From Rhodosporidiobolus odoratus (taxonomy: Eukaryota; Basidiomycota; Microbotryomycetes; Sporidiobolales; Sporidiobolaceae): a stretch of DNA of 64,000 nt. Each line of letters begins with the position of its first letter. The stretch's first letter is position 1. A program made the translations under genes and the position numbers. Under the pieces are notes generated by a model that was not told the origin of the DNA, did not search any database, and worked only from the letters and a program-made list of their open reading frames with translations. The stretch spans positions 930,001-994,000 of the forward strand of contig JAOANU010000003.1 in assembly GCA_034387635.1 (NCBI GenBank), given 5' to 3'. Shown here one piece after another: positions 5,018 through 57,057 of this stretch.

Positions 5018-8000
5018 CTACTTGGGGAAGGAGGGAACATCAACGTTGGCTTTGACAGAGCGAGAAGGTGGGAACGGGATCTGGAAGCGAGTCGAAAAGG
5101 CCTCTCCGAAGGGCTGCGAGTCGGCACCACCGAGGCGTAGCGCTGCAAGGAGAACTGCGGCGTTGTTTGCGGCACCGACTCCGAGATCGCGGTGGAAGGT
5201 GACGTCGCATTCGGAGCAGAGCTTGACGCGGTGGTGCAGCTTGCCTTCTGGGGTGTAGTAGTTACGAAGGCTGTTGGTTGGGAAGAGTCAGTACAAAGAA
5301 GAGTGGTAACACAACGGTCGGGGTGCGTACAGCTCGTGTGCATTCGTCCTGCAAGTAATGTTGGGACACGACTGAGACGTGCGAAACTCGTCAACCACAA
5401 CCGCCTGGACCTTGTTGATGTCCGAGCGGGCACCGAGGTGCTTGAGGATCGAGTGAAGGAGCGCACCACCCTTGCCGTGCGAATGACCGGCGACATGAAC
5501 GGGATCGTCCTTGCCGACCGCGATGAGGACGTCCTTGATGGTGTCAGAGGGAGAAATTGTGCGGTTGATCAGCTCAGCACCCGCCGAGTCGAAGGCGGAG
5601 CGACGGCGTTGACCCGTCTCGAAGGAGTGCTTTGCGTCTGCAAAGAACGGTGAGGTGCAGGGATCAGCCGGGATCTCACAGTAGGGACCAAACAAAATGA
5701 ACCTTGTGCTCGAAGCGCTTGCGTTCGGCAATTTGATGAGGAGCGAGGGAGACCACTTCCAGCGCAGTCAAACGCCGCTGCTGCTCTGCCCATTCCTTCG
5801 TCCTCGCAGACTGCTGGAAGACGCCGGACTTGACGCCCGCCTGGATCGGCAGCGAGCCGTCCATCTGCTCGGCATGCATCGCCCCGGTCCAAGCACGGCC
5901 GGTATCAAGTCCCGCCAGGACGAGAGAAGGAGGGAATTCACCGCTCCCGTTGTGCGGGTTGAGCTGGGCAATGATGCGGCAAGCCTGCAGGATGACTGGC
6001 GTTGCACGAGGGTCGGATGGAAGGAGGTGGTGAACATGCGGCGTTTGCGGGATCGGATGGTTTTTGGCGTCAGGAAGGGGGAGCGGGTCAAGTCGACGTT
6101 TCAGCAGCTCCGGACGTAAGGTGAGGGTATCGGGCGAAGCGGTGAGGCGTTTGAGAGCTGGCCGAGCATGCTCGTTAATCTGTACCATCATCTCCTTGAC
6201 CGTGCTCGGGGTCGGTTTGGGCAGAGTATCGAGGAAGCTCTGCTGCGGACGAGCGGGGTTGAGCACCTGGTAGTGGATGCGATGTGGGTCGTAGGTGGCT
6301 GAACCATGAGGGAGAAAGGTCGTGGAAGAAGAGCTGTGGCCGCGGCAAGGCGGTTAGTGCGAAGCAGATCCTCGAGAGCGATTTTGCGTTTTGGCTTGGA
6401 GAGCAGTTCCGGTTTCTGTCCATGCAGGAACTCCCTGACAAAGTCGACCAACTTGTCCTGCACGTCCTGATCTAGGTTCTGAGAGAAGACGGATGGGAAG
6501 GGAGGTGGGGCGCAATGCGTGTTGGAAGCGCGAGGTCGATTGGTAAGCTCAGAAGTGTAGAGGTCAGAGAGCTCGGAACCCATCGAGTTGAGTGCCGTCA
6601 GAAGGGTGTCGTCGGAGCCGGCATGATCGAGGAGCGTCCAGAAGTCGGCGAGGTCAAAGCTGTCTTGCTTTGGGTTGTAGGTCTGCAGACCTGCGATGAG
6701 CGACGGCGCAATGAGGGAGCAGAGCGAAAGTACGTACCGTGAAAGGCAATCCCGGAGCATGTTCCTGAAGCCACACCACGTCCTTTACTTTACTGATCTC
6801 TGCCAGCCCACTCACAGCCTGTGCCAGCTCGAGTACGCCTTGCGCTGCGCACCGCAATACCCCAACCCGTGCTGGCGCATCCCGAGGTGCTGCGAGCAGA
6901 GCCCGCCAAGTCCAACTCTCGTCGGCCGATACACCTTGTACCAAGTCATTTTGCGCGAAATCTTCCGCTTCCCTCCTCGCCTCTGCATTCCACGTCGTGC
7001 GAGCTTGCTCGTCCAAGCGCAAGGGGCCGAGGAAGTTGGCGAATGGCTGATGTCGAGCGTCCCATTTTCGCTGTGGACACTCGCAGCCTTTGGAGTGATC
7101 GTAGTCGTACCCCGCTTGATGAGTACAGGCTGCGGCAGCCGTGTGGGCAAAGAAGAATGCCGCCACTCGGAACGGAACAACGACGGCAAGGGCGTAACGC
7201 TCGACGGTTGGCGCATCTACAGAGGGGAGCAGTTGAGGCAGAGTGATGAGCTGAATCTCGTGCTCGGTGAGCGTCGGAGAGTAGAGGCGGATGGGCTCAA
7301 AGTCGATAGGTGCGTCCAGGAGTAGGTCGGACAGCATGGAAAGCACCTTGTCGAACGAGCGAGACTGACGGAGGAGCGCTGAGAACTCGCCGAGGCTGGG
7401 GAGTACAAAGGCGGGGACGGCGAAAGCGAATGGAGCGAGGTCGGGGACTGTCGCGGTCCAGTCAAAGAGGCGTGTAATGGCGTAGTGAACGAAGGGAAGG
7501 AGTTCGGTTGGGCGGTCAAGGAGGATGGCGGCAACGGCGCGAGAGAGCTGGCGTGGCGCATGCTGACCGTGCACGTCGATGTTGGTGGCGATGGTGCAGA
7601 TGTGCGGAAGCAGGTGCTCACGAAGGGGTGTATGGGCGAAAAGGATGGGGGAGGTGAGGCGGCCGATAGCGGAGTCGAGGACCTTGGAGAAGCTCGCAAC
7701 GACAGAGGGCAGCAGCTGTGAAGACCACGTCGGGAGGGTATGAGCAATCTCTGCCTATGACTGGGACAAACGGAAAGACTCACCCCGAGCTCTTGCGCCT
7801 TGGTAAAGCAGGAGTCGAGGAGGATCGGCGGTGGTGGCGGGAAGTGGGATTGGGCAAAGGGGCCGAGCTGCAAGCGCATTGCCTCGGCGGGGTGGACAGC
7901 GGATCGGGTTGCCGGTGCAAGGGCCGCGCGAAACAGGCGACACAGGAGATCATAAGAGCCGTGAACGGCTGAGTTGAGGAGGAGAGGATGAAGGGGGTGA

Positions 8001-9654: not shown

Positions 9655-9888
9655 TGTTAGCAGGAGGGGATAGGATGGTTACGACGGAGTCGACGGGAAG
9701 AGGATGTGCGGGTTGAGGGGAGGTGGGAGAAATCTAACTTGATGGCGGCGGAGAGACGGGCCTTCCTTTCCTTTAAGGCTCATCGCAATCTCTCCGTTCG
9801 CCAGGTCCGTAGAGTCTCTTAACCTTCTTACAGCTGAAATAAAGGCTCATCGCAATTTCTCCGTTCTCTCGAGGGAGAAGCTGTTTTA
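9655..9888 (+). repeat. 5' LTR of the copia element, 234 bp
   Basis: It begins TGTTAGCAGG and ends GCTGTTTTA. Compared with the 3' LTR it lacks 9 bp in the segment before CTCTCGAGGGAG and has one T for C. Internally it carries a direct repeat of about 28 bp (AAGGCTCATCGCAAT...). The terminal dinucleotides are TG...TA rather than TG...CA. Confidence 0.93.
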
Positions 9889-9898
9889 TGGTAGCACC
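9889..9898 (+). other. Primer-binding site, Ty1-like
   Basis: TGGTAGCACC starts immediately after the 5' LTR. The yeast Ty1 site, complementary to the initiator tRNA-Met 3' end, is TGGTAGCGCC; this differs by one base. Priming by initiator tRNA-Met is therefore likely. Confidence 0.8.
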
Positions 9899-10082
9899 TT
9901 TGGTTCGACGATCCGAAGCCTTAAACGGCAGCCAGTCCGCACTCCAGGGAGCAGCAGCGACAGCTGATCCGATCAACCCCACGACTATCCCGCTCCCACC
10001 TTCCCCGGCATCCTCTACCGAGTTCGAACACCTAGACACCCTCCGAGATTCCCTCGCCCATACCCGTGCATCCATCCCCAAG

Positions 10083-13000
10083 ATGAGCGCCTCGACTTCC
10101 TCCTCCCTCGCCAAAGACACCCTCGAGTCGCTTGGTGAGCTTACGGCAGCCACTTGGCAAGAGTGGAAAGTCTACCTCCCTAAAGCCCTCGCCGCTGTCA
10201 CCCGCGAACCCGCCGCCCACTTCTACCTGAATGGCATACTCCCAAAGCCTTCCTACGACATAACGACCATTGGCGAAGTACTCAAGGACACCGAGAAGCG
10301 CACCGAGTTCGAAAATTGGGTATCACTAGCAGACTCGCTAAAACTGTTGGTCGTCAATTATGGAGGCGCAGACGCGAAGGCTCGCGTCCAGGGTTTTGCT
10401 ACTGAGTTAGGAGACGCAAAAGGTTTATGGGATAAGCTGGAGAGCTGGTACGGAACTACTGGGACGGGAATGGAAAAGGTGGCGATTTTATCGAAGCTAT
10501 GGCACGAGCGGTGGGATGAGGTGGAGTCCCCTGCTCTCTGGTTCGCCCGTTTCTTCACTCTCAGTGAACGGCTCAACACCGCCTACAAGGCCGATGCCGC
10601 CCTCGCCCTCGACCCCTCGAACCCCTCGGTTATTGCCGCTTCTCACGCCTCCCTTAACGACTTCCTTCTCCGCGACCTAGTCATCTCATACCTCCCTTCA
10701 TCCTATGCTGAAACCCTCACCCCAAACTGGACCAACCGTACGGCGCTGGACGACGTCAAGACCGGGGTTCAAAATTTGTGGGCGACCCGGACGTCGCGCG
10801 AGGAAATTGCAGGAGAGGAAGCCAGGAGGGTGGGACGGATGAACTCGGGGACAGTGCAGCGAGGGAAACCAGAAGACGTGCCTGGAGGAAAAGGGAAGAA
10901 AGGCGGGAGGAGCGGATGGAGTCAGAATCGCTTGCCAGCCGATCGGTACACCGGCTACGAGAAATGGCGGGGCGGTACCTTCCTCGACTCGCAAGGCGTC
11001 ACGAGGTTCAAGATCCCCGAAGGGACTTGCTTTTCCTGCTTCCAACACGGGCACCGCAGGGCCGCATGCCAGATCAGGTCCGACCGCAACGCTTGCGCCA
11101 GGTCGAGGACAGCGGAGCTGAAAAAGGATGGAATCCTTGTACCAATGGAGGACGCCAACGCCCTGTCAGTTGCCGACCTCGCCGACCCGGACCGCGCCAC
11201 CCTCACCGCTCTCGTCGCCCAACTCGAGTTGAGCAGTCGCAATTCCGCCAACCTTCTCCCTCCCGCGCCCTCCGTGCCCGTCGCCCCTGACGTCCCTCAG
11301 CAACACGCCTCCCTCTCTGTCATCGAAGACGACGTCCAAACCCGTCCCCGTTTCTTCCGCGTCACCGAGGCCCATGACCCAGACGCCTTTCGCTCATCAA
11401 CCTCTCTCGATACCTTCTCCGCCGACTTCGCTCTTCGCACCAATCACGTCTCCCGCCCTTCCAAGTACGTCCTTGACTCAGGCGCCACTCGACACTTCAC
11501 AACTTGTCGCGACCACCTGCACGACTACACGCAGTATCCGACCCCTCGCAACATCAACGGCGCATTCGGAAGCGCCGGGGTCGCACTCGGCGAAGGAACG
11601 CTCCGCTTCAATTTCCCCGCTGGACCCGTCTACATCTCGCAAGTCATGCTCGTCCCTACACTCGGGGTCAACCTCATCTCCATGACACGACTCACGATGG
11701 CCGGCGCCAAGTTTGAGAACGACCGTTCCACCCTCACCCTCCTCGACGAAAAGCGGCGCCTTATCGCTCGTCTACCAGTCGGGGTCTCGATCACTATTGA
11801 GGCAAGCCGAGTCTCTCCTGCGCCCCTCTTTCCCCTTCCTTCCTCTTTCCTTACTCTCTCGCCGGCCCCTTCACCCAATGCGAGTGATCCGGTCGTTTTT
11901 CCCGCTTCTTCGAGCAGTACTGACGGAAACGTCTGGCACTCGCGAACAGGGCATCTGAGCGGAGAACGACTGGGGAAACTTGTGGCGGGCGGGGGTTTAG
12001 GTGTAGAGATAGACGGATGGAAGCCGGGAATGTCGTTCTCCTCGTGCGAAGCCTGCGCCGCCGGAAAACTGACAAAGGCGTCAGCAAACAAAAGCAGTGA
12101 GCAAAAGAGCCGTCGGGTTGAACGCCTTGTGGCGGACGTGTGGGGACCTTCCCCCATTCTCGGGTCAGATGGGTCTAGGTATATCGTCGGAGTCGTGGAT
12201 GATGCGACGCGGTACATGTGGGTGAAGGGGATTAAGTCGAAGACGGAGGTGGCGAAAACGATTGAAAGGTGGATCAGGGAGAGGGAGCGGGAGACAGGGG
12301 AAAAGGTGGTGGTTTTTCAGTCGGATCATGGCGGAGAATTTGTGGGCGGGCCTCTCCCGGGTTTCCTTCGGGCTCAAGGTATTCAACATTTCAAGACGGT
12401 TCCCTACGCTCACGGTCAAAACGGGCTAATCGAACGACAGTGGAGGACACTCTTCGAAACGGTACGATCCTGGCTCGCAGAATCCGGCCTACCCACCTCT
12501 TTCTGGATCCACGCCCTCCACTCCGCCTGCCACGTTCGAAATCTATCCCCGACTGTCTCCCTACCACGCTCGATCTCGCCCGCCCACGCATATTATTCGA
12601 ACGTACCCGACCTCTCGCACCTCCGGGCCTGGGGTTGCGTCGCCCATCTTTACGTCGAAGGACCTAAGCGTGGTGCAAAGGTCGAGGGGAGGAGTGTCCG
12701 TGCCAGATTCATTGGGTACGAGGAGGGTACAAAAGGATGGAAATTCTGGGTGCCCGAATGGAGGAAAACCGTGTTGGCATGGTCGGTACGGTGGTTTGAA
12801 CGTTCGTTCGATAAGGTCAGGACGAAAGAGGAGGATAAATTAGGAGAAGAATGGTTGGAGGGAATGCTGGAGAAGGCGGATGAAGTGGATGAAGGGCGGA
12901 GGATCCCGGACCAAGGAGGGGTGAAGGTAAAACCACCTTCGCAAGTCGAAGAAGACTTATATGTTCCGGCCTCCTCCACCCACTCTCACCCTCTTCCTTC

Positions 13001-15137
13001 ACCTGCACACACCCCGCCGCAAGCTTCCCCAGTCCCCATTCCCGCTCCGCCTACTCAAGCAAACACCCGACCTTCCCTTCCTCCCACAAATCCATCTCCA
13101 TTTCTTCTCGAACCTCGCAGATCACGTCGCCTTGACAAGCTCCGACCCGAATTCAATGTACCACTTGAAGGCGCGCCTCCCGAAAACATCCCCACAAACG
13201 AGATCTCTCCCCTTCCCGAACCCCGTCCTGAACCCCTTCCCGAACCCTCCCAAATCGCTCTATCTACCTTCCTCCCTCCCTTGGGCCTGTCAAACCCCGC
13301 CTCCGATTCCGAATCCCTACGAACCCCTCCACCATCCCGTCTCCCTGCTCGTGTAGTAGGCGGGGCTCGACTTCCTCTGCCAAAACCTAAGCCTGAAAAG
13401 GGTGAACTTGCTTTTGCAGTACTCGACGCCGACCTCGACTCCGACCCCGAAGCCATTGAATACCTCGTCTTCAGCTTAACGCAGGACGAAACGGCCCTTG
13501 CGGTTGGGGGCGAGTGGGGAAACATCGACCACCCTACGATCAAGCAAGCCATGGCAAGGCCGGACTGGGAAAAGTTCCGTCTTGCGATGGAGGTAGAGTT
13601 AGCGGTATTGGATGCGATGAAGACGGTTGTTGGAGGAATGAAGAACGGGTTGATGGACCTTCCTGAGGGTAAAAAGGCGATTCCCCTCAAATGGGTGTTG
13701 GTGATCAAACGCGACGGGGAGGGGCGGATTGTGAAGTATAAGGCTAGGCTGGTTGCTCGGGGGGATAGACAGGTTGATGGCGTGGATTACGACGAGACTC
13801 ACTCCTCTACAGTTCGCCTCACCACAGTCCGCCTCATCTACGCCCTCCTCGCACGCCATCCGAACTGGCGCCTCTTGCAATTCGACGTCACATCCGCATA
13901 CCTTCACGGCCTACTCGATCACGAAATCTACATCCAGCAACCCTCAGGATTCGAAAATCCCGACTTTCCTCGCCGCGTCTTCCGACTCCAGCGGGCGCTC
14001 TACGGATTGAAACAAGGGGGACGAGAATGGCAGAAAGTCTTCAGGGCTGAGCTGGAAAAATTAGGTTTCACGAGGTGTGAATCGGATCATGGGTTGTATG
14101 TAAGGAAGCGGGAGGGGAAGGTTGCGTTGGTGCCGACGCACGTGGATGACGGGTTGATGGTGGGCGATGATGACCTCAACGGCATCCTCAATGCCCTGAA
14201 TGAGGCGTTTGAGGGACGAGTAAAGAGGGAGGATGACGGTTTGTTCTTGGGTATGAGGGTAAAGAGAAAGGAGGATGGGGGGGTCGCCATCGACCAAGGT
14301 CACTACGCGGCCGCCGTTCTTGAACGTTTCGGCCTCGATAAAGCTGATCCCGTCTCCACCCCTATCGACTACTCTTCTCCTCTTCCTACCCCCGCCACCG
14401 AAGACGAACGCATGGACGTCCCCTTCCGTGAGCTTCTCGGCGCCCTCGTCTGGCTATCATGCTGCACTCGACCCGACCTTGCCTTTGCCGTTTCCGTCGT
14501 CTCTCGCTACTCCTCCTGCCCGGCCGAGCGCCACTGGAACATGCTCAAACGGATATGCCGGTACATCGCTGGGACCGTCAATCATGGCCTACTTTATTCC
14601 CCTCCCTCCGACCCTTCCTCCCCTTTCTCCGCCGCGAATCTTCCTGGATGGAGCGACTCCGATCATGCTGCCGACAAGGAGACTCGACGAAGCGTGTCGG
14701 GCTTTGTCTTCTGCGTCGGTGAACTCTTCGAGTTTACAGCCATTTGCTGGAACGCGAGGAGACAGAGGTCGGTCGCTATATCGTCGACGGAAGCGGAATA
14801 TATGGCGCTTTCCGAGGCGGCAAGGGAAGCTATGTGGCTACGGCAACTCCTCGTCGACATCGGTTTTTCTCCCTCCGCCCCAACCCTAATCCGCGGCGAC
14901 AACTCCGGTGCACTCCTTCTCGCCAACCACCCGGCGTCACACGGCCGCACCAAGCATATTGCCGTCCACTATCATTTCACGCGGGAGCAAGTCAATGAAG
15001 GTACAGTAGAATTGAAGTGGGTGCCTACGGGGGAGATGGCGGCGGATTTAATGACGAAGGGTTTGGGACCAGCCAAGCACATCCTGTTCTCTAAGAGGTG
15101 TGGGATGGTCGACTGCCGCCGCAAGGAGGGGTGTTAG
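10083..15137 (+). CDS. copia gag-pol polyprotein (about 1684 residues)
   Basis: One open frame without introns or frameshift. The frame is open from an ATG at 9888 that overlaps the last LTR base and the primer-binding site; I prefer the internal ATG at 10083 because the earlier one would put the primer site inside the gene. Signatures from 10083: gag with a CCHC knuckle CFSCFQHGHRRAAC (about residue 316), aspartic protease DSGATRHFT (about 465), GAG-pre-integrase WHSRTGHL, integrase with VADVWG (Asp about 685), VDDATRY and SDHGGEF, reverse transcriptase with ARLVARGDRQ, FDVTSAYLHG, YGLKQG and HVDDG in place of YVDD (about 1355), and RNase H with ISSTEAEYMAL and RTKHIAVHYH. The stop lies in the first bases of the 3' LTR. 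The element encodes its own reverse transcription and integration. Confidence 0.95.
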   Translation: MSASTSSSLAKDTLESLGELTAATWQEWKVYLPKALAAVTREPAAHFYLNGILPKPSYDITTIGEVLKDTEKRTEFENWVSLADSLKLLVVNYGGADAKARVQGFATELGDAKGLWDKLESWYGTTGTGMEKVAILSKLWHERWDEVESPALWFARFFTLSERLNTAYKADAALALDPSNPSVIAASHASLNDFLLRDLVISYLPSSYAETLTPNWTNRTALDDVKTGVQNLWATRTSREEIAGEEARRVGRMNSGTVQRGKPEDVPGGKGKKGGRSGWSQNRLPADRYTGYEKWRGGTFLDSQGVTRFKIPEGTCFSCFQHGHRRAACQIRSDRNACARSRTAELKKDGILVPMEDANALSVADLADPDRATLTALVAQLELSSRNSANLLPPAPSVPVAPDVPQQHASLSVIEDDVQTRPRFFRVTEAHDPDAFRSSTSLDTFSADFALRTNHVSRPSKYVLDSGATRHFTTCRDHLHDYTQYPTPRNINGAFGSAGVALGEGTLRFNFPAGPVYISQVMLVPTLGVNLISMTRLTMAGAKFENDRSTLTLLDEKRRLIARLPVGVSITIEASRVSPAPLFPLPSSFLTLSPAPSPNASDPVVFPASSSSTDGNVWHSRTGHLSGERLGKLVAGGGLGVEIDGWKPGMSFSSCEACAAGKLTKASANKSSEQKSRRVERLVADVWGPSPILGSDGSRYIVGVVDDATRYMWVKGIKSKTEVAKTIERWIRERERETGEKVVVFQSDHGGEFVGGPLPGFLRAQGIQHFKTVPYAHGQNGLIERQWRTLFETVRSWLAESGLPTSFWIHALHSACHVRNLSPTVSLPRSISPAHAYYSNVPDLSHLRAWGCVAHLYVEGPKRGAKVEGRSVRARFIGYEEGTKGWKFWVPEWRKTVLAWSVRWFERSFDKVRTKEEDKLGEEWLEGMLEKADEVDEGRRIPDQGGVKVKPPSQVEEDLYVPASSTHSHPLPSPAHTPPQASPVPIPAPPTQANTRPSLPPTNPSPFLLEPRRSRRLDKLRPEFNVPLEGAPPENIPTNEISPLPEPRPEPLPEPSQIALSTFLPPLGLSNPASDSESLRTPPPSRLPARVVGGARLPLPKPKPEKGELAFAVLDADLDSDPEAIEYLVFSLTQDETALAVGGEWGNIDHPTIKQAMARPDWEKFRLAMEVELAVLDAMKTVVGGMKNGLMDLPEGKKAIPLKWVLVIKRDGEGRIVKYKARLVARGDRQVDGVDYDETHSSTVRLTTVRLIYALLARHPNWRLLQFDVTSAYLHGLLDHEIYIQQPSGFENPDFPRRVFRLQRALYGLKQGGREWQKVFRAELEKLGFTRCESDHGLYVRKREGKVALVPTHVDDGLMVGDDDLNGILNALNEAFEGRVKREDDGLFLGMRVKRKEDGGVAIDQGHYAAAVLERFGLDKADPVSTPIDYSSPLPTPATEDERMDVPFRELLGALVWLSCCTRPDLAFAVSVVSRYSSCPAERHWNMLKRICRYIAGTVNHGLLYSPPSDPSSPFSAANLPGWSDSDHAADKETRRSVSGFVFCVGELFEFTAICWNARRQRSVAISSTEAEYMALSEAAREAMWLRQLLVDIGFSPSAPTLIRGDNSGALLLANHPASHGRTKHIAVHYHFTREQVNEGTVELKWVPTGEMAADLMTKGLGPAKHILFSKRCGMVDCRRKEGC
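15122..15131 (+). other. Polypurine tract of the copia element
   Basis: CAAGGAGGGG, with a G following, abuts the 3' LTR start at 15132 and lies inside the last codons of the polyprotein. It is the expected primer for plus-strand DNA synthesis. Confidence 0.75.
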
Positions 15138-43823: not shown

Positions 43824-45832
43824 GCAGAGCGTCAACGAGCAGCACTACCCCGTCAGGGAGGAAAGGGGAAGAGGCACGGGCTGGGCAAGGAGATCCTTCC
43901 TTTGCGGGCGGAAGCAAAGAAGTATATAGACTGTTGTAGCTAGACAAGAACGAGCACGTAGAGCCAAAGACGCACAATCGTTTGCCCGGTGAACCGCGCG
44001 TCAAGGGTCTCGAGCCACAAAAGAAATGGGAAGAGACTGCTTTTTTTGCGCCATTTTTGTGCCAATGACCTCGCTGTAGAGGTATTCAACGATGTGTTCG
44101 GAGACTGGAAGGAAGGGTCGTCAGCACGCGAAGGAGGTGACGACGCAAGAACCCCGACATACTGGAGTCGGTGAGAGGCTCCGGCTTATTGACTACCGAA
44201 GAACACGACCAGGTAGGCGTTGTTATACTGTCATCGAGCGAGTCAGCCGTGCAGGACGGATGAGCCAACACCAAATCGCGAATGGCTGGTGCACGGACTC
44301 TTTCTGATCGAATACACCGGCCGAGACGACTTTTTCTTCTAGCCTGCGAGGTAGTAGTTTAGCGCGAGCCTGAACAACATTGGAAAAAGCAGCGTAGAGA
44401 TCGCACATTGGAGCATAGCGGGGTGGAATAAAGGCGCAAGTAGCGGAGGCTCCACCCATTCCCACAGGACGGTGCGATCTGAACATGCTCAGCTTCAGTT
44501 GACGAGGACTGAAAGGCTGTGCAAAAGAAGCGGGCGCATGAGGAAGGAAGAAGACGAACGCATCCAGCATCAACCGAGGAGTGACACGCATAACCCGCAT
44601 CAAATCACATTCATAACACGGAGGGTGGAGTGGCGGAAGCGGAGGCGAGAGCTCGTGTCTGTAACAGACGCCCGTCACCCTGGGATGCTCTAGGCTGTCC
44701 ACAGGGTGAGCCAAATCACCATGCCCCTCAGCGCGCTCTGGGCGGTTCACCGAGGGAGGTGCCGCTATATGTCAGAATCAAGGCAGTCTGACGGCGTGCG
44801 GGGCGGAAACAGAGGTATCCGAGCCCGGAAAACAAGAGCGACTGTGGAGTGTTTACGGTACGTACATGCTCGCTGTCTGTCATCAAAGAGCAACTGACCT
44901 GCTTGATCGACAGTGCATGTGCATGGAAACGAGGGCGAGAGGGAGCATCTCGTTCGACTACGCCCAGACCAACATGCCCTAGTGAGGCAGACTCGTTTCA
45001 CTCGGACTCGCAATGCCCTGCTGACTTGTCTTTGTATTCCAACAGTCTGCGGCAGAAGATCATGCTCGAGATCGACCAGAAGCGTCTGTTGGTTCTCGAA
45101 CCCTCGCAGCGCGGCGGCTAAAGGAGAGCTGAGAGTAGGTCGAGAGGGGATAGTGTAACAATGCCGGCGATTGCGAAGCGACACCTGAATGCTGCAGACG
45201 AGAGGCGCCTTGGCTGCGCCAATCATGCAAAGAGCCGCAGAGATGGACAAGGTCAGAGGCCGAGTCGGCGGCGAGTCATACGAGGAGGAGAGAAGGGTGT
45301 AACCTCGAGAAACCGCACGACGCACACGACGGCGTAAGGGAAGGGGAGGTGAGCGGTGGTAGAACTATAAGCCGTCAAGAAAAGGGAACGGGACGGCTTG
45401 GACGTAAACGTAGTCACAGTGAACGAAATGCAGGGAGATCCGATCCGATGTGTAAAATTGGTGTTTGCGGGGCGGCGAGTATTGTATGCGATTGCACAGG
45501 AGAAGCGGCAGAGCCGAGACGGAAGGAAGAGAAGAAAAACAGGCACAAAACAGGTCATCAGCGCATCAGCGTTCTGCGCTCTGGTGTCTATACCTTGAGC
45601 GCTGCTGCCTCACTGAGAGCGTGGGTCGAAGGACGAGCCTACACTCAGGCCAATCAGAGGAACATCCTTTGAATACCGACAACACTCTTTGCGACCTCCT
45701 CTCCGTCTGCCCCTCTCTTGACTTCATCGCTTCCACTCCCTGCCCCACTGCTCAGAGACTGGCAGAAATTGGCTAGTGCACACTCCGGCAAGCTCAAGAC
45801 AATCCCCCGCCGGACACCGGCTCGACAACGTC
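43824..45832. other. Two-kilobase region 5' of Fanzor-like copy B, no convincing gene
   Basis: Open frames on both strands (for example 44765-45325, -) are compositionally unlike real genes of this window and lack motifs and splice structure. The segment 45680-45770 is pyrimidine-rich on the + strand and likely contains the Fanzor-like gene's promoter and leader. If that gene is carried by a transposon, the left end should fall in this region. I could not find terminal inverted repeats by eye. Confidence 0.45.
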
Positions 45833-48800
45833 ATGGGTCATGCCGGCAAAGTCAGCGCAATCAACGCAAGGGCCAAAGAAATGGCAGGACCGCATGGAGA
45901 TCGCCAGCGCCTTCAAAACACGGTAGCAACGCCGCTGGGCTTGTTCATGATCATAGCCGCGGAGAACAAGCACACAGGCGAGTTTCTCCTTCGGAAGGGT
46001 GGGACGGGTGCTGAAACCTGTTGCCCTAGCAGGTGACTTGGGTCGATCACTCGTTTACATACGAGATCTCGCCGGTATCTTCTTCTCCCAGCACCAATGG
46101 TCCGTCCGTCGAGTCGCGAGCCTCCGCAAGGAGGAGGAGGTGCGCAAGATCGTACGGCGTGAAGGCTTGATTGCCGTCACTCGGAGCGGCCGGGAGCTCA
46201 AGGCAGCAGCCAAAGAAGCAGGGTTCGACAGCTTCCACCTGCTGGATCTCGGCGACGGCCCCGACCGCCCCAACGGAAAAGATGAGGAAGCCGAGAAGCG
46301 GGCACGGCGTATTCGAAGCGAGCGAGTCACTCAGGGCCGGATGGCGTGCGGACGCTATCAGGACGAGATCGAGATGACCTGGAGTGCAGAGGACTTACCG
46401 GTGCGATGGCCTTGCTTGCCTGAACTAGAAATGCCGCACTGATCCCCTTTCCATTGTTTGTTCAGACTGAGCAACAGGAACTCGCAGCGGATCAAGCTTG
46501 GCACCACATCCTCCTAGGACCCGACGAAGCCGATCGACTCGCGTACCAGCTGCTCGCAAGTGCAGACGACCGCCGCAGCGGTCGCGGAACAGCAGCAGCA
46601 GGATCCGCAGCCTTTCCGGTCATTCAAGGCTGGGACGCCGAGCAGACGGAGACGCTCGTTGAGCTGATTGCCGGCGTCAAGGCAGGCTGCGTCGTGCGCG
46701 AGTCTCGGGACTCGGACTGGATTGACTTTCCTCCCCATCTTTCCCGCTTCCATGTTCGACCTCAGCTGGGGAAGGACTTTGCTTACCTCCCCCGTCCACT
46801 CCCTACGACCGACATTACGCTGCAGCTGGGACAACCGCCAACAGAGGGCGGCCAGGGAGGAAGCGGAGAGGACGGTGGAAGAGACGCGAAAACAGGAAAC
46901 CTCGAGGAGGGACGGGCAGAGGTCGAGATGGACTGGGAAGCTGATGTGGGGGAGGGGAAGAGTTTGGCAGCGTCCGCGGCCGCAGACAGGGGGGCGGAGG
47001 AAGACCTTTCGCCGGCGTTTACGCGTCTCAACTCGATCCTGGGGTTGGAGGACGGCACGGACAATGGTTTGACGGATCTGTCCGAGGAGGAGGGGGAGGA
47101 AGAAGAGGAAGAGGAGGATTTGAGGGATGGGAGAGGGGTCAGGAGGTCGAGCAGGTCGAGCCAGAAGAAGGACGTAGGAGGAGAGGGAAAGGGGAAGGGG
47201 AAGGGAGCGGGAAAGACGGGTAGGCAGGGCAAGGGAGGACGGCGGGGCAGGGGCAAGAAGAAGGGTACCGAAGAAGGGGGAGGAGAACAGGGCGAGGGGG
47301 AAAGAGGGCGCAAGAGGAAGCGCAAGGCGGGACGCAATAAAGGGCCCCCGGCTGGCCCGCCTCTCGAACCTCTGCCCGCCACCGCCCTCTTCTCCGAGCC
47401 AGTAGAGCCGGTCCCAGGACAAGTTGTCGCCCTCGTCGACACTCTCGAGGCCAGCAAACTTCTCCCGGGCTGGGACCTATCGCCCGAGGTCAAGGCCAGA
47501 GCACGCGCCATCCAGGGCGACGACATCAGCGGCATTGGGCTGCCTCACGTCGGCGAGGCCACGGTGTTCATGGTCAAGCATAGGGAGACCCTGGAAGACG
47601 ACGTCACTTGGGCGGCGGCGGATCGCCTCGCTCCGCATCTACAGCAAGCTTTCAAGGAGCAGCTCAAAGCCCGCAAGGATCGACGGACGGGCAATCACAT
47701 TCCGGAATTCGAGGTCACGGTTGCCGTCGCGTCTAAGCTCATTCTCAGCGTCAACACCCGTCTAGGCAGACCCGTCACCTGCGGACCGTAGCGCACGATC
47801 TCGACCAACAACCACGCGACTGCGCACCACCTCACCTTTTGCCAACAGCAGCTCACCGACAAGGGCACGCGCTCGCAGCGTCAAGGTCGAGAGAAAACAA
47901 GCAGCGAGGCAAACAAGAAGCAGGGGGGGGCAAAGAGAAACGAGGGCACAACCGTCAGCAGTGCCCCCCAGACGGCATTGCAGTACAAGGAGTTCCGCGG
48001 TCGCGAATTCCTGCCGTCGATCCTCGAGATGGTTCCGGAAGAAATGCCGAAGGGGAAGGAGAAGGGAGGCGAGGAGGACGATCGAGAAGGGCAAGGAAAC
48101 GGCACAGATGGGGGTTTCGGCGATGACGACTCAGAGTTAGACTATACGGACGACGACAACGATGGCGAGGAAGGAGAAGAGGACGGAGAGGAGGACGACG
48201 GCGGACAGCAAGAGGGAGGGACAAAGGGAGGCGGCCAAGCAGGGAAGCAGAAGGCCAAATCGCAGCAAAGCCAACGCCACAAGACTTCCGTCGATTACGA
48301 TTGCGTCACTTTCCCGCCGTTCACCCACAAGTCCATCACCCGCACGCTGCGTCCAGAGGAGATCAACTTGACGCGGCGAGCACTCGAGGCGGGCGCCAAG
48401 GTCAGCTGCAGCGGCGCGGCGATTTGGCAGGCTCGTCGACAGGGCTCCACGCTACCGAGAGAGCGCCAGGTACGACAGAGCGACGTCGAGCAGGAAACAG
48501 TCGACGTCAGGATCAACAACACCGCGACCTGGCTGCTGCGCGCTCACCACTTGGTCAGCGTTGCATCGGTCCCCCGCGCACGGCAGGCGGCCAGCGAGTA
48601 TGTGGCGCAGCAATGCCAAACGGAAGCAGGTCGACGTAACCTGAACAACATGAAGGAGAGGGATTTGAAGCAGGCATTGGGACGAATGATAGGAGAACAG
48701 GAGCCGAAGAAGGGAGAAGAGGTATGTATCGTTCACCAATCCACAAGCTACAATGGACTGACTCGCTCATGCAATCAGCACTCCGTCTACGACAGGATGG

Positions 48801-51595
48801 ACGACCAGACAAGGCCTTGCCGCCTGAGAACCGCGCAAGATCGTGCCGTATTGACCTCGCCGTTCTCAAACACCATCATCAACACCGCTCGTCGTGGAAA
48901 CGACGTCCTGCGCTTGCTTGCGAAGTACATCCAGGGCAACCTCGCCCGGTTACCCGAACTGCTGGCATGTACTCTCTCAGGTCGAGGAGGCGCGCAATGG
49001 AGCGCAGCAAGCCTATCCTTCCTCACCAGCCCAGGCGGGGGGTTCGCGGCAGAGCAACTGCGCAAAATCGGACGGAGCCTCGAGTACATACTCGTAACGG
49101 ACCCCTTCTCCCTCGCTCGGAGCCGCACCGGTGCACCACCAAGGACCGACACAGGCGCTGCGCCAGGGAAGAAGACAGAAGCCTCGAGAAGAACCAGCAA
49201 GCGTCAGCGTACGGCAGCAAGCTCGAGCAAGTACGTCATGCATGATATGGACGACGACGACGACGACGACGACAACGACAACGACGACGACGAGGTGCGA
49301 GATTACCCTGAGAAGCTGGTCAAGGAGGAAGAGCTGCGCAAGGTCATCAAAGCGTCGGCCGCGCCGTCCGCCTTCGCAAACGACTTGGTCAGGCTCATGG
49401 ACCGCTTCCTCGCCTTTAGGGATCGAGAACTGGCGACGTTCCTCGACGAGCGTGAAATTGGGCTAAGACAAGGCGACGCGATGCCCAAGAACGGCCAAGC
49501 GAGAGCCGAGGACGGGCAACGCTTCCACAAGATTGGCGCTCGCAAGGCATTGGTGAGCTTCTTCTCAACCGTGCGGCAAATGGTTCAGCGGTCGGCACTG
49601 CCGGTGAGTGGATTCCCTCAGCCTCAACACGAACGACGACCTGATCGAGTCTCATACAGTACTACGACCCGGATTGGGTCGACACAGGCGCGTCAAGTCT
49701 CGCGACAATGCTCGACCATCCCGACGAGATCATCGCAGCCGTAGAAGAGGAAGTCACTGCGCTAACCGAGCCGGCGTTCGAGAAACTCGCGGGACTGGCG
49801 ACACGCGATCATCAGGCGGCGTTACGGGACCTCTTTGAAAGCCTTTACCGCCTTGTCGAGTTCCGCGCGGCGAGGGAGGACGGCAGTGAGAAAGTGCTGA
49901 GCCGTGAAGAGTTGAGGGAGGAGGCAAAGTTAGGGGGGAAAGTGAGGGTGAAGGTCGCAGATGAGGTGGCAGAGGGCTTGAGGAAGACGGGAGACATCTG
50001 TCGGGAGAGATTTGGTCTCGAAGGGAAGAAGAGCCTGCGGAACCAGTTGACCCAGAAGCTCGGCGCGACGTCGGAACTCCTCAATACCCTTTTCGATCTG
50101 TCCAAGCTGCCTCCTTACTACCTCCCGACTGGCTACCTCCGCATCTCCTCTACTCACATACGCTTTACGGTGGCCGATTTGCGAAGACCCAAGTCCGTTC
50201 CGAAAGGTGCAGCCGACTCACCATTGCGGCATCGTGTGTTGACGCTGACCCTTGTCTGTTTGTGCGGCACAGACTTCGACGTTGAGAAGCACTCCACCGG
50301 CGACCTTTTCTTGCACCACGTTTGCTCCTCAGCCGGCAAGTCAAGCAATCTCAGCGTCAACGAATACGCAAAGCTGCTCCGCCCGGTGGAAGAATTCATC
50401 GTCAACAGCGACGAGATCAAGTCGCGTCCCGTATCACCCATTGTTTCGAAGCAGGCAATGGAGTGAAAGGTTGGCCTGCAGATGCAAGACGTGATCGACT
50501 TCAAGCAGACCGGCGCGACAGTCGACCGCGTCTTCCTACTCAGTCACCGCGTCCAGCTCGACTACGAGAACCCCGGCACCTGGAAAGGCCTCCCACGAGA
50601 CTGGGACGACATCGCCAAGGCGGAGGGCCAGTCAGAGCTCCGTAACTTCATTGGTCAAGATTCAAATGGCGAGCTCGACATCAAGAACACCTCGTTCGTC
50701 GGAGTCGACCCGGGCAACGTCTGCCCAGTTGCTGGCGCGGCCTCAGTACCAGTCAGCGGAGACAAAGGCAAGGCCCGCCGTGAAGCCGGGTTCGTCCTCA
50801 AGCGGGGCGTGTTCCAAGCGGCGACAAGGGTTCTCAATCAGACTGCTTCGCACCGCAACAACAAGATCGCAGCCCTTTTCAACGCCGGGTCGCCTACGTC
50901 ACCATTGCCGGCCGAATCACAGTCCATCCCGGCTATCCCCATCTTGAAGAAACTCAGCACAGTCCGCTCGCAAGATCGTCAAGAAGCTCAGCGGCGCGGC
51001 AGGATCAAGGAGAACCAGGTCGCAAGCGAGTTTGTTTGTCTGGCCATGAACGCCGCAAAGCTGGCAGCAGATCCCAGCGCCATGAAGACAGACGAGTCGA
51101 GCGAGACTCAGAAGTATGTCGTCTTCGTCGGCGACGAGGGGGGACAGAAGAACTCTGGCGGTCGTCGAGGAGCGGATAGAGGAGGTCCTCTAATTCGTCG
51201 CGCCGCCATCGAATGCCGAGCTCGCGGGACCAAGGCCAAGTTTGTCCGTACCCCGGAGCACTTCACCACGAAGCGATGCTCAAAGCCCGACTGCAAAAGC
51301 GCCAATGGTCTGCGAAACGAGTGAGTAATTCCTTTTGAGTCTCTCGAGCTCGAGCGAGCTCACACAGCCTGACCGCAGGCTCTCCAATCCCCGCTACGCC
51401 TCAGGGAACCCGTGCTATCGAGTCGTCGCGTGTGATGGACCCGCCGGCCAGAATCAACCACATGCCTCCCACCGCGACGTCAACGCCGGCGTCAACATCA
51501 TCGCAAACGGAATCAGCTACCTTCGGAACGGTCAACAAGCTTGGCAGCCTGCGGCAAAGTCTCGAGCGAAGGGAAAGGGAAAGGGAAAGGCATAG
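45833..51595 (+). CDS. Fanzor/TnpB-like RNA-guided nuclease, copy B, apparently intact (1766 residues)
   Basis: Nine exons can be phased: 45833-45998, 46033-46400, 46466-47773, 47849-48721, 48779-49603, 49660-50206, 50273-50430, 50482-51320 and 51379-51595. They sum to 5301 nt, a multiple of three. An apparent stop near 50465 falls inside the 51-bp intron 50431-50481. Nuclease signatures are at the C-terminus: RuvC-I SFVGVDPGNVCPVAG (Asp about residue 1491), KRGVFQAATR, VVFVGDEGG, then TPEHFTTKRCSKPDC (Glu about 1674), a second Cys pair NPCYRVVACD, and RuvC-III SHRDVNAGVNIIANG (Asp about 1728), then a Lys-rich tail. The first about 1450 residues have no recognised domain but contain a Glu run (about 385), Gly/Lys/Arg-rich basic stretches and an Asp run (about 1061). 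Fanzors use a 3'-derived omega RNA to guide DNA cleavage; activity here is inferred. Intron 1 (34 bp) is suspiciously short. Confidence 0.85.
49247..49292 (+). repeat. (GAC)n trinucleotide repeat in coding sequence
   Basis: Within Fanzor-like copy B a run of GAC codons with a few AAC codons encodes an Asp/Asn-rich acidic tract. Such tracts are prone to length change. Confidence 0.85.
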
Positions 51596-51866
51596 GGGAG
51601 GTACAGATCAGGGTGGCTGAAGGATGTGCTTGATTTTAGTAGGAGGAGCGCTTGCCATGATGATAGGACTTCTCTCTCGTAGTACTGTGGCTTCTCTGTT
51701 GACTCTTTGTTGCTGTTTCCCCTCTCTCTTTCGTCTCTCCCTTCCTGTAATCACGGGTCGCTTGATGCACACCAGAGGAATCAGAGAGCCGAGAACACAG
51801 GCTTGGTTTCATGCAACACACAAGTCTCAAGCGGGAAGAAAACTAGACACTGACGAGAAGGCGGAA
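51596..51866 (+). other. 3' flank of Fanzor-like copy B, candidate guide-RNA region
   Basis: This 271-bp convergent spacer follows the stop of Fanzor-like copy B. By analogy with other Fanzor loci, an omega RNA would start in or just before this region. The sequence has pyrimidine-rich and AT-richer parts but no hairpin I can assert by eye. Confidence 0.35.
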
Positions 51867-53048
51867 CTACGAGTTTCGAGTGTAACGAGCGCGCTTTTGG
51901 GAGGAGCTACCCTGATCGGCGAGTGCAGCCTGCGGTAGCGACTGGTGAGCACAAGGGAAAGAAAAGAGGGAGCGAGAGAGAGGGGACTGCACCTGCTCAC
52001 GCAACTTGGCGTTCTGTCGGAGAAAACAAGTGAGCTCGGAGAAGTAAGAACGAGAGACCAGGCGTACCTCCTTCTTAAGCTCAGCGTTATCGAAGCGGAG
52101 TTGCTTGAGCTCGGCCTCAACCGGGCTGACTGGGGTATAGTCCTGCAGAACAACAAGTCAGGAGAGTCGAGTGGGAGAGGAGAAAGCCAGACAACGTACA
52201 AACTCTTCGATCTCGCCGGTTCCATCCTCAAAGGTGATACAGCCCACCAGCTCCTGAATCTTGCGCATAGCCGCATCTTCGCTTGGAAGAGGGGGGAAAT
52301 TATCGGCGCTCAATTGGGCGAACTGGAACCTTTGGACGTCGCGATCTTCGAGGTACTCGTCGTAGCCTTGGGCCAGGGCGCAGGTGAGCCCGTAGAAGAT
52401 CTTGTAGTACAGGCGATTTTGACTAATGTTGAGGTAGTATTTGCTGTCGTCCAGCTCGTGGCCAGTTAACTGGTGGAACAGGTTGGAAATGAGAGAGTGC
52501 GGAAGAAAGTCGCGTGTCGGGTCGGGGAATGGGAGAGGAAGCTCGGCATGGAGGCTGTTCTTGTGGAGGTTCCTGATGAGATACTCTTGGAGAAGAGTGG
52601 GGAGACCGGTCGTGACTTGGCCGGCTTGAAGGGCGATCTTGAAGGCGCAACGACGGACGGGGGACAGGTCGCGCAGCCATACCCAGAGGCGACACTGGGC
52701 TGACTCGGGCGCATGGATGTTGCCGCAGACAAGGTAGGGTCTGCGAGAACCAGTCCTCAGCAAAATATAGAGGAAGGGACAGAGGGGAAACGTACTCGAG
52801 GTAGTGAAGGTTTGTCTTCGAGATCTTGAAATGAGCCGGATGCGGCTTGCGACCATACTCGAAGCAGTAACAAGGCAGGACTGCCAAAGCAAAGGGATCA
52901 GCAATTGTAACCGAGGCGCGGGAAGAGTGAGCGGAACAGGCGTACAAGGCTCGAGATCGTCCAGTTTGGCCTGCTCAACAGCTTCAATCGTCTTGAGCGA
53001 GTTGCCATGCTTGTCGCAGGGAGGAGGGGTGTTTTCAACAAAGCCCAT
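51867..53048 (-). CDS. Unrecognised protein with possible GRF-like zinc motif and C-terminal coiled coil
   Basis: The ATG at 53048 gives MGFVENTPPPCDKHGNSLKT. After introns come CYCFEYGRKPHPAHF and then YLVCGNIHAPESAQCRLWVW. The pattern of an early Cys-x2-His, GR, a Cys and a final Cys followed by aromatic residues resembles GRF-type zinc fingers, but the match is partial. A helical middle region follows (QEYLIRNLHKNSLHAELPL, HQLTGHELDDSKYYLNIS, YKIFYGLTCALAQGYDEYLE). Three short final exons encode a leucine-type coiled coil (ELKQLRFDNAELKKE, NAKLREQ) and a basic tail SSSQKRARYTRNS, stop at 51867-51869. The splice phases agree throughout. Nuclear function is a guess from the basic tail and possible GRF finger. 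Confidence 0.7.
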
Positions 53049-54773
53049 GATGTGGTTGATGTGGTGATCGATGCGGTGGATGAGAGAAGTGGGGGTGAAG
53101 GAGAGAAGAAGGAATGCGGTACGACCCTGTGTCGGCTGCAGCCAAGGTGGCATTCGAGCAAACAGGAGGCAGGACAAAGCGGGAAGCGAGATTGCCCAGG
53201 GCTCGCTTGAGAAGGTCAGTCATCACCAAACGAGCGGAGAAATGTGCGGAGTGAATACGTCTTGAACCAGCGCAGCGATCAATCAGACACGTTAACAGGG
53301 TACGCTGTGTGAGCAAGCGAAGCAAGTAGTACAGCGAGACGCCATGCACAGCTTGAGCGAGCTAAGGCCCATGAGCGAGCGAGATGACCCAAATTGAGAA
53401 GGTCGAAAGGTTGTCAACCGGAGAGAGGACCAGAACCGGACCACTGGGGATGAGTAGGCCGCATGCAGGCGAAGTAGACTCGCACGAGAGCGAGGTCGTG
53501 CAATGGTTTCCGAGAGGGATGCTGAAGCGTGAGAAAGTACATGGATGCGTGCACCGGGCACGCCTCCTGAACTCAGTTCTCATGACTTTCTCTCGCGCTC
53601 GTCCGCTCTCTCTTTCTTTCCTTCAGTTCACTCTCTCCCAGCAGCATCTTGAACCGAGGTGAGTATCTTGTATCGACTGGTGCTTACCCTTGGGCGAAGA
53701 GCTGATCTTCTCTTGCCCACTCCGCTCCCTCTCCCGTCCCTCCCTCTGCTGCACCGCTCCTCCTGCCGCCTTCTTCGATAGCTCAGCGGTCAAGGATGCC
53801 TCCAACCTCACCTGGACGAGTCAAGTGTTGGAGGAAGGCAAGACACAGTGTGTCTTTTCTGATGTACTGGGTTCGTCTGAAAGGAGTGGCTGACCCGTCA
53901 CTTGGTACACAGATCTGTCGATGCGGACTTCCAAGTGAGCAGTATCTGACAGATTTTACACGTACTCGGCTAACGAAGGATCCTGTTGAGTACCAGGCTC
54001 CAGCTGAATCACCTCCGCGATGTTTCCCTTTCGGTTCACCTCTTTTCTTCTGCTCTGTGGTTTTGAGGTGCGTATGGTTCATGTCCGACCAGCGACTGGC
54101 CTTGCTGACCTACTCTCTACATAGCTTCACCCTCCCTCGACCGATCCTCCGCCCCGTTGTCTTGTTGACCCTGGTGCGCGCCGTTTCTCTCTCTCTCTTT
54201 CGAGTGTTCAGATCTTGACCCACTTAGCTCTGCAGGGCGTCTGGTCATTCCGGCTTGCCGTAGAGTGACCGAGGTGGTGAGGGGAGTTTCTCTCTTTTCA
54301 GGCCGCCCAGACAAGGACCGCGGCAGGGGCCTTTGTGGACCCGGTGTTGTAGCTGCAATACTTTAGCAATCTTTCCTCGTACTCAGTTTGCACCGGTCTC
54401 TTTGTCATCCTCGAGGACAACATCTCTTGTAGCCCACATTGATTGCGAATACAACAACTGTACCACCGCAAGCTCATGGCACACTCAAAGCCCGAGGGAC
54501 AGAACAGCCGGACCCGCAAATGCAGACAAGGAGAAATGTAGGAATCGATCTAACGTTGCTTGAAACGGTACGAGCTACAAAACGACAAGGCAAGAACAGC
54601 ACGTATGTAGGAGTGGGTGACGGGTGAGGCGAGGAACGGCAAGAAAACAGAGTCATCGCAAGGAGCACGGCTACGATGGAAGACGCTAAAATAGCGAGAA
54701 CCAAAGGATGAAAGGATACAACGAGGAGTCGGCTGAGTGTCTATTATAGGAGGCTTGGCCTGTAGATATGACC
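53049..54773. other. Intergenic; possible small spliced transcript, not called
   Basis: Between the starts and ends of neighbouring minus-strand genes. At 53659-53781 there is an intron-like structure (GTGAGT donor, pyrimidine-rich tract, TAG acceptor) followed by an ATG at 53796 with an open frame to 54218, but the predicted peptide has no motif and odd composition. No tRNA is present despite a D-loop-like string at about 53778. Confidence 0.4.
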
Positions 54774-57057
54774 CTACAGGTCGATGGGCTGCCCACTGGC
54801 AGCGCCGCTCTCGACGTGTTCGCCTTGTATCGAAGCGTGGTTCCCGCTTGCCAAGCTCGCTGCATCGGTGTCGCTTTCGTCCGGTAGTGGCTGGTAGCCG
54901 GCAGATGGTGACGGAGAAGGCGAGGGCATTATCGAGGAAGTACTTTCGGACCGAGCGATCGAGACGGCGGATGAGGCGGAGGTCAAAGACGGGGGCAGGC
55001 GCGAGAGGCCGGCATCGCGAGCTGATCGGGAGTCGGGATCAGGCACAGGATCCGAGGCAGTTGTAAGCGGCAATGGGACAGGAGAGCGAGAGGCGACGGG
55101 CGTGTCGAGGGAAGGGGCTTCGAGGGGGGTAGACGGGATGTCGAGGTTGATCTGGGGTACAGCCGACAATGGAGCTAGCTGAGGAGGCTGACCCTGTTGT
55201 GGAGCGCCAGCGAGAGGCGGCGAGGACGCGCTTTCGGCGCGAGATGTTGAAGCCGCGGCGAGACCCGCGCCGACGATTCCGCGCTCTAACGAAGAGCCTG
55301 CGGTGGACTCGCCAGATTGCGGAAAGGACGAAGAGGTAGAAGGAGAGATGACGGAGGCAGCAATCTCGCCACCAGCTAGAGCACCGAGTGGGGAGAGGGA
55401 AGTTGGCTCATTTCGGGAGAAAGCCGAAGTGCGAAGGGGCGAAGAAGGCGAAGTCGACAGAGCGGACGCGCCCATGGCCTCCGAGAGCATAGTCTCCGTC
55501 ATTCTTGGCGTTCGTAGGACATCGGCGTGCCCCGCGGCTGGCGGCGACGCCCCTCCAGCAGTCCCGGCCGTACCTTTTCTAGCCTCCTCCTCCTGCGTCT
55601 TCTTCTGCCGTTCCTCTTCCTCCAGCTGACTGAGCCTCATCGCCTCTTGCACCATCATCTCTTCAATGTCGGGTCCACCGCCAAGCCCAAGTTGCTCGAG
55701 AAGCTGCATCAACTCATCGTTTCCGCCTGCGCCGTGTCGTCTTGAGCTGCGACTCGCGCGCCTTCTGCCGCTAGAAGAGCCACCGTTCTCGTTGCTGGCG
55801 TCAAGAGCAGCTGCGATCTGCGAAAGGAAGTTCGGAGGCAGGGTAGTTGTCGCCATTGTGGGGTTCGCGCCGTCCCCACCCCGACCAGATGCGATGCCAA
55901 CGGGAATGAGACGATCTCCGACTTGGCGGAAAACGATGCGACGGTTCGCGCGGCGAGCCACGGCGGCTTTCATGGTCTCGAGCTTCTCCTCCCAGTCCGG
56001 GTGGATCATGTCTGCAGGAGACAACGGGCATCAAGGCGAGGTAAAGATCGAAGCGTCGAGACAGGACTGACCGGTAGTCACAACGGCCTTCTCGGTATGC
56101 GCAAAGCTTTTCCTTCGAGACTTGGGGGCGGCGGCAGCCCCGGCTGGAGACGCTTCCGTCGAAGAGCCAGACGCCCCGCTCGAGTTCTGCTGAATTGCTG
56201 GTCGCGCGGGAGCAGGCTGCGACAAGGCAGGATCATCAGCACCTACGCTAAGGCCTGTATCAAGCGATACACGAACCTTTGTATAGATGCCTCCGAAGTT
56301 GGGCTCCATACAGAACGGACAGCAGGCGGGCTCGGACTCGAGGTGTGTGGGAGTAGGATCGGCACGCTTGATCTGGACGAAGCACTCGGTGCAGATGGGC
56401 TGATCGCAGCAGCGAGTGTGCACCATGTTGGGCGGGTAGTAGCTGCGAAACAGTACGGTCAGCCCGAGTTGCAAGTCAAGGCAGAAGAAAGCAGACGCAC
56501 AGGAAGCAAATGGGACATTCGAACGCTACGCCTCGATACAGCTTGGCCTGCTCCGCCTTGCTGCTACTAGGCTGCAGTGCTCCTCCGCCCCGCTTCTCCC
56601 GCGCCTTGAGCAGTTCGGCCAAGCGTTCTCGCCGAAGAACGGAGAGATTGTAGGCCTGAATCGATTCTTTGTGCTTGCGCGTTCCGGGGGGGCAGTTGAG
56701 TTGCTGAGCATCGGCCTCATTTGCTGCTTCAGTCGCGGCAGCGAGGGCGTCCTTGAGATTCTGAGTAGCCTGCTGTTCCGCTTCTCCGAGAGCGCCGACC
56801 AGCCGCTCGAGGTCCCAGTCCTCCTCAAAGTCGAGCAAGCCGAGGTAAAAGGGGGAGAGTCGGCGGTCCTGTATGAGCTTGTGTACGGTTGGTCTGCTGT
56901 ACTCGACGTGGCTGTAGAGGAGTGACTGTGGTTCGAGGTATCCTCCGTCAACGGAAGTGGGTCGGGATGGGTTATCGAGGGTGTTTGAGCGGCTGCGTAG
57001 ACCAGGTACTGAGGGTTTGGATGAGCTGCCACCCGAGGAGGATTGGTTGTTTCCCAT
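54774..57057 (-). CDS. Sip5-like RING-type protein
   Basis: The ATG at 57057 begins [13 protein letters not shown], an N-myristoylation-type start as in Sip5. Then [40 protein letters not shown] and a helical region. The cysteine cluster runs FECPICFL, an intron, [20 protein letters not shown], then [15 protein letters not shown], an unusual RING/treble-clef arrangement typical of the family. After another intron comes [20 protein letters not shown], then long Ser/Ala/Pro-rich disorder with a helical [20 protein letters not shown] segment, ending SGQPIDL at 54774. In budding yeast Sip5 interacts with the Snf1 kinase and Reg1-Glc7 phosphatase, linking it to glucose signalling. That role is transferred by family and not tested here. 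Confidence 0.88.

Follow-up and report, generated by a model that had tools for sequence, protein, structure and literature searches.

The window, by which we mean the whole stretch of 64,000 nucleotides analysed here, corresponds to positions 930001-994000 of contig C3 of Rhodosporidiobolus odoratus; the assembly searched comprises 24.8 Mb in 45 contigs (C3, C10 and so on below). It contains a Fanzor-like gene that lies within a duplicated segment. The features of this locus, in window coordinates, are as follows.

45378-54354, no strand assigned: duplicated segment, 93.8% identical to C10:180357-189341
45833-51595, plus strand: window copy of the Fanzor-like gene, with seven exons and 1,808 codons followed by the terminal stop, two further stops interrupting the frame
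45833-45998, 46033-46400, 46466-48721, 48779-49603, 49660-50206, 50273-51320 and 51379-51595, plus strand: exons of the window copy
47789-47791, plus strand: in-frame TAG, codon 620; a sense codon in the C10 copy
50464-50466, plus strand: in-frame TGA, codon 1452; a sense codon in the C10 copy
50467-51320, plus strand: rest of exon 6, with RuvC-I (DPG), RuvC-II with E1716 and the first zinc half-site, Cx4C
51321-51378, plus strand: 58-nt phase-2 intron within the zinc-ribbon loop, in the same place and phase as in a second family (below)
51379-51595, plus strand: exon 7, with the second zinc half-site and HRDVNAGVN (D1770)

The model of the window copy has six GT-AG introns of 34-66 nt each, keeps its frame throughout and holds 1,806 sense codons. 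Base composition alone would predict about 58 internal stops and there are 2, so the frame at 45833-51595 was once coding. Low-complexity acidic and Lys-rich stretches split it into blocks. Exons 1-5 match no Pfam family (exon 1 was left out of this search), nothing was found when single exons were compared with Pfam and NCBIfam, and Rfam gave no match over 45000-55000 at gathering scores.

The last ~280 residues carry VGVDPG, VVFVGDEGG, PEHFTTKRCSKPDC, a second zinc half-site and HRDVNAGVNII. The putative catalytic residues fall in exons 6-7, within VGVDPG (D1533), EHFTTKRC (E1716, with the zinc ligand C1723) and HRDVNAGVNI (D1770). Both copies have the DPG motif at RuvC-I and a RuvC-II Glu exactly six residues ahead of the first zinc Cys (E1716-x6-C1723), and these two traits are given as Fanzor fingerprints in PMC10711439. 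The pattern DPG-x(120,230)-E-x6-C-x(2,6)-C-x(10,40)-C-x(2,6)-C-x(4,20)-D matches the protein at a single place; of 20,000 shuffles of its C-terminal 421 residues, 0 match. The longer Fanzor motif of Bao and Jurka, D-X(125,275)-[TS][TS]-X-X-zinc finger-X(5,50)-RD in PMC3627910, is matched if the zinc finger is spelled loosely, again with 0 of 20,000 shuffles. The Fanzor search pattern in PMC10711439 asks for a C4 zinc ribbon whose second half is CxxC; here the second half lacks CxxC, the spacing being Cx4C and then Cx5C.

PF07282 is the best Pfam match of the spliced C-terminus in both copies (E 3.3e-4 for the window copy, 1.2e-4 for the C10 copy), the window copy scoring 21.2 bits, under the curated cut-off of 26.3. 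The best E-value to PHROG 506, annotated “transposase”, is 0.0038. Neither exon 6 nor the spliced C-terminus matched the PDB by sequence, and no homologue was found in the protein database among roughly 8,000 candidates sharing most words with the query. None of the viral and prokaryotic contigs matched either of two patterns, both of which derive from residues 1-43 of the query and do not cover the RuvC motifs. AlphaFold2, run on exon 6 only with a five-row alignment (exon 7 left out), returned an unusable model (pLDDT 32.5, pTM 0.18); the alignment consisted of zinc-exon rows of relatives only, short exon fragments misplaced by MAFFT having been left out.

Searches of the genome with PF07282 and guided_TnpB yielded sub-threshold matches only, at five and three places, respectively, and these led to the discovery of a second Fanzor-like family. 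It is marked by the signatures VVVDEFRTS...C and DRD or HRD and is found at eight loci, two on C16, one each on C9, C5, C3 and C7, and relics on C4 and C6:

5021-9493 of the window, minus strand: second-family locus, with the C-terminal exons of the gene at about 5703-6308, 5333-5641 and 5021-5254
C9:895307, C5:610879, C16:583630, C16:495210, C7:102268, C4:1571464 and C6:620068: second-family loci outside the window

The search that defines this set, taken to an E-value of 10, gave eleven rows, among them two rows for each of two loci; C7:501919 was dropped as a weak match (E 1.65). The family includes near-duplicates, the C16 pair being about 97.5% and the C9 and C5 members about 92% identical in DNA. 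At the window locus the last exons carry VVVDEFRTSQSC-x4-C and HRDLGVGAAN, and a block further upstream is also found at the C9 locus. This gene is adjoined by an open 1,764-codon Copia-type polyprotein with RVT_2 and integrase-type domains (window 9843-15134, plus strand). All three spliced second-family members that were scanned match PF07282, the first of them above the cut-off (39.4 bits). In the PDB, the family profile retrieves eleven sequences. LaTranC, TnpB, mimivirus L79 and SpuFz1 are among them, with E-values from 2e-4 to 0.3, as are two zinc fingers of no relation (0.35 and 0.47). GGDSDN and GQDY had suggested that this family begins with an XPG-like nuclease, a reading that was dropped as neither Pfam nor the PDB supports it.

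The two families resemble each other in E-x6-C-x4-C, in RD, and in a zinc-loop intron whose place and phase agree. In profile-profile comparison the Glu, the Cx4C and the RD are aligned (E 1.3e-4, probability 54%); three of the four zinc Cys of the target are kept in alignment with the second family, and the fourth is off its usual place. The zinc-loop intron, in phase 2 and 6-8 codons past the second Cys, is present in both target copies and in six of the seven second-family loci examined, its donor being absent from the C7 locus; a second, phase-0 donor-like site is seen in four of the six loci with the intron. The families differ in that the second zinc half of the second family has CxxC in C9 and C16 (CPGC, CTGC) and in C3 (CSEC), and in that its RuvC-I is by alignment DTG, DLG or DGG, whereas that of the target is DPG. 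The RuvC-I regions of the two give no significant alignment (E 0.41), and the second-family HMM scores the target at 4.8 bits, a value reached by at least 5 of 2,000 shuffles.

Judged from the motifs and the shuffles, the C-terminal TnpB/Fanzor-like signature is real. The first-pass annotation had read these C-terminal motifs from the sequence alone and had proposed an unusually large relative of Fanzor. The motifs are where it placed them; the kinship is upheld by their order and spacing, by the sub-threshold PF07282 matches, and by the profile match and common intron with the second family; and the size stands out still, at about 1,800 codons against 600-700 residues for most Fz1 proteins according to PMC11423790. 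The gene would thus be of a divergent and very long Fanzor-like type, provided that, as we infer, its exons encode one polypeptide.

It is also conceivable, if unlikely, that two genes are present, with exons 1-5 (or part of them) coding for a different protein and the Fanzor-like gene, then of normal length, confined to the 3' end. Exons 1-5 have no similarity to the second family and, as noted, no Pfam match, and the acidic and Lys-rich stretches that divide the frame into blocks would suit such an arrangement. Against this, the frame is kept across all GT-AG introns, the splice dinucleotides are kept in both copies, and there is no in-frame stop other than those at 47789 and 50464. In addition, blocks lying about 1-4 kb upstream of the RuvC exons are common to the second-family loci on C9 and C3 (33% and 27% identity); long genes of this kind may therefore be usual in this genome.

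Less probable again is that the C-terminus belongs to another RNase-H-fold or zinc protein, whose resemblance to Fanzor would be distant or due to chance. The profile scores below threshold, the lack of a PDB match or usable model, and a RuvC-I that cannot be aligned with that of the second family would all be compatible with such a protein. They are opposed by the pattern and spacing of the motifs, by PF07282 being the best Pfam match of both copies, and by an intron whose position and phase are common to a family that does reach the PF07282 cut-off.

The second copy of the gene, on C10, has three in-frame stops of its own (codons 335, 584 and 779) and a one-base frameshift near window position 49192; each of the six introns retains its GT and AG there. 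No clear terminal inverted repeats or target-site duplications were found for the 9-kb unit. A fragment at C21:286990-288235 matches window 53114-54355 and is 99.2% identical to the C10 copy; its right end lies within one base of the right end of the duplicated segment, a coincidence that hints at a true element end. A transposon of known type was considered and dropped, since the unit shows no ends and none of the few frames that were scanned matches a transposase. The segment also contains a 353-codon open frame (window 52158-53219, minus strand) that has no Pfam match and whose genome matches at E<=0.01 are the two copies only. Two stretches are nearly identical between the copies: 49378-49878, which includes an intron and differs by 0.8% compared with 4-9% around it, and about 45640-45850. 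Both are possible cases of gene conversion.

Divergence between the copies is near-neutral. It amounts to 5.1% in coding sequence (276/5,427) and 5.7% outside (186/3,282), and five codon differences involve a stop, compared with 7.4 (sd 2.7) in neutral simulations using the non-coding rates. The nonsynonymous fraction is 0.633, against 0.721 in the simulations, none of 500 falling at or below the observed value, so that some constraint acted for part of the time. The dN/dS ratio is 0.5 over all codons; by 200-codon blocks (the final 9-codon block left out) it is 0.30 in the first, 0.34-0.40 over codons 1400-1800 and 1.0 over codons 600-800.

The first-pass annotation had described a stop-free chain of nine exons and an intact, expressible and possibly active gene. 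A multi-exon GT-AG model that keeps frame is confirmed, with seven exons in place of nine and with the two in-frame stops; the 1,766 residues reported earlier are 42 codons (126 nt) below the 1,808-codon model, and from this difference the nine exons were presumably the present seven with two further introns placed over the stops. Stop codons can be hidden in this way in exon chains inferred by eye. Frame-keeping GT-AG pairs of 30-150 nt that combine a GTRNG donor with a YAG acceptor, a filter that five of the six introns of the model pass, number 0 of 32 over the first stop and 0 of 26 over the second. With a looser GTR donor and YAG retained as acceptor, a single pair spans the first stop, and its donor is absent from the second copy; of the pairs spanning the second stop, 4/6 have a donor that is kept there. 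That the gene is intact, real introns missed by the filters removing both stops so that the protein is made, is very improbable: looser pairs do span the stops (one at 47789, six at 50464), but none has a GTRNG donor, the C10 copy is sense at both sites so that no intron is needed there, and coding and non-coding divergence are alike, with five codon differences that involve a stop. Given the premature stops in both copies and almost neutral divergence, the claim of an intact, expressible and potentially active gene is not supported. With the frameshift in one of them in addition, neither copy would yield the full protein, and the pair looks like what is left of a gene and not like a functioning enzyme.

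Transitions between the copies are concentrated at the cytosine of TCG, where they affect 68 of 407 sites, compared with 184 of 4,282 cytosines in the pooled non-TCG contexts (p 8e-19) and 61 of 942 at CpG cytosines outside TCG (p 3e-8). Among the five nonsense changes, only one is in TCG context (codon 584, in the C10 copy). Hypermutation of repeats at TCG is described in Microbotryum and Puccinia, i.e. in Pucciniomycotina, in PMC10502011 and PMC12730594. The bias fits a Pucciniomycotina host, consistent with the basidiomycete yeast of the first-pass annotation, and a possible repeat-directed cause. Each of the 32 two-kb intervals has a negative value of the RIP-like index of PMC10502011, which is -0.32 for the window, -0.10 for the gene and -0.07 for the C10 stretch; the gene thus has a higher value than the window. 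Since a negative index gives no absolute support for repeat-directed mutation, the pairwise TCG test is the evidence used here. The gene pair was perhaps disabled by genome defence, although the negative index and the single nonsense change in TCG context speak against this.

We consider it fairly probable that the locus preserves, in decayed form, a gene for one protein of ~1,800 residues that ended in a TnpB/Fanzor-type RuvC and zinc-ribbon module. Going by homology, this ancestral protein would probably have been an RNA-guided DNA endonuclease, RNA guidance and DNA cutting being attributed to it through kinship. DNA would have been cut by a RuvC site formed from D1533, E1716 (at the Fanzor-specific alternative position) and D1770, and the roughly 1,400 residues ahead of the nuclease module may hold unrecognised parts. 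In this reading the gene was once under selection, the 9-kb segment carrying it was duplicated, and both copies then gained premature stops and TCG-focused transitions, and one a frameshift.

More doubtful is the suggestion that this lineage had a giant-Fanzor branch of its own, in which the nucleases were some 2.5 times as long as usual, had an atypical zinc ribbon and carried large N-terminal regions that are not recognised. It would have existed beside a second long Fanzor-like family, and TCG-directed mutation would now be erasing both; sister species may still have functional members. According to PMC10432273, Fz1 and Fz2 are widespread in fungi, and its main text does not name basidiomycetes; among PMC papers searched by their main text, none was found that treats Fanzor together with Basidiomycota, Rhodotorula or Pucciniomycotina. 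If our reading is true, the size range of Fanzor would widen (to about 1,800 residues), as would its host range, perhaps to a Pucciniomycotina yeast. Two broken copies with a TCG bias would also be a tangible example of an RNA-guided nuclease family that mutation directed at repeats may have put out of action.

Among known systems, the TnpB proteins of IS200/IS605 and IS607 elements (PF07282, NF040570) share the zinc ribbon and the RD with the gene described here. TnpBs typically have D-hydrophobic-G at RuvC-I and a Glu some 50 residues ahead of the zinc finger, as stated in PMC10711439, whereas the present gene has DPG and a Glu six residues before it. The resemblance to Fanzor1, represented by SpuFz1 of Spizellomyces punctatus (PDB 8gkh), extends to a DPG-type RuvC-I, a Glu that precedes the first zinc Cys by six residues, and a zinc ribbon and then RD following the Glu. 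The spacings from D to E and from E to D are 183 and 54 residues here, compared with 158 and 65 in SpuFz1 (D383, E541, D606). The present gene departs from Fanzor1 in that the second half of its zinc ribbon is not CxxC, in that its frame is broken in both copies, and in its length, about 1,800 codons if exons 1-7 form a single gene, in contrast to the 638 residues of SpuFz1.
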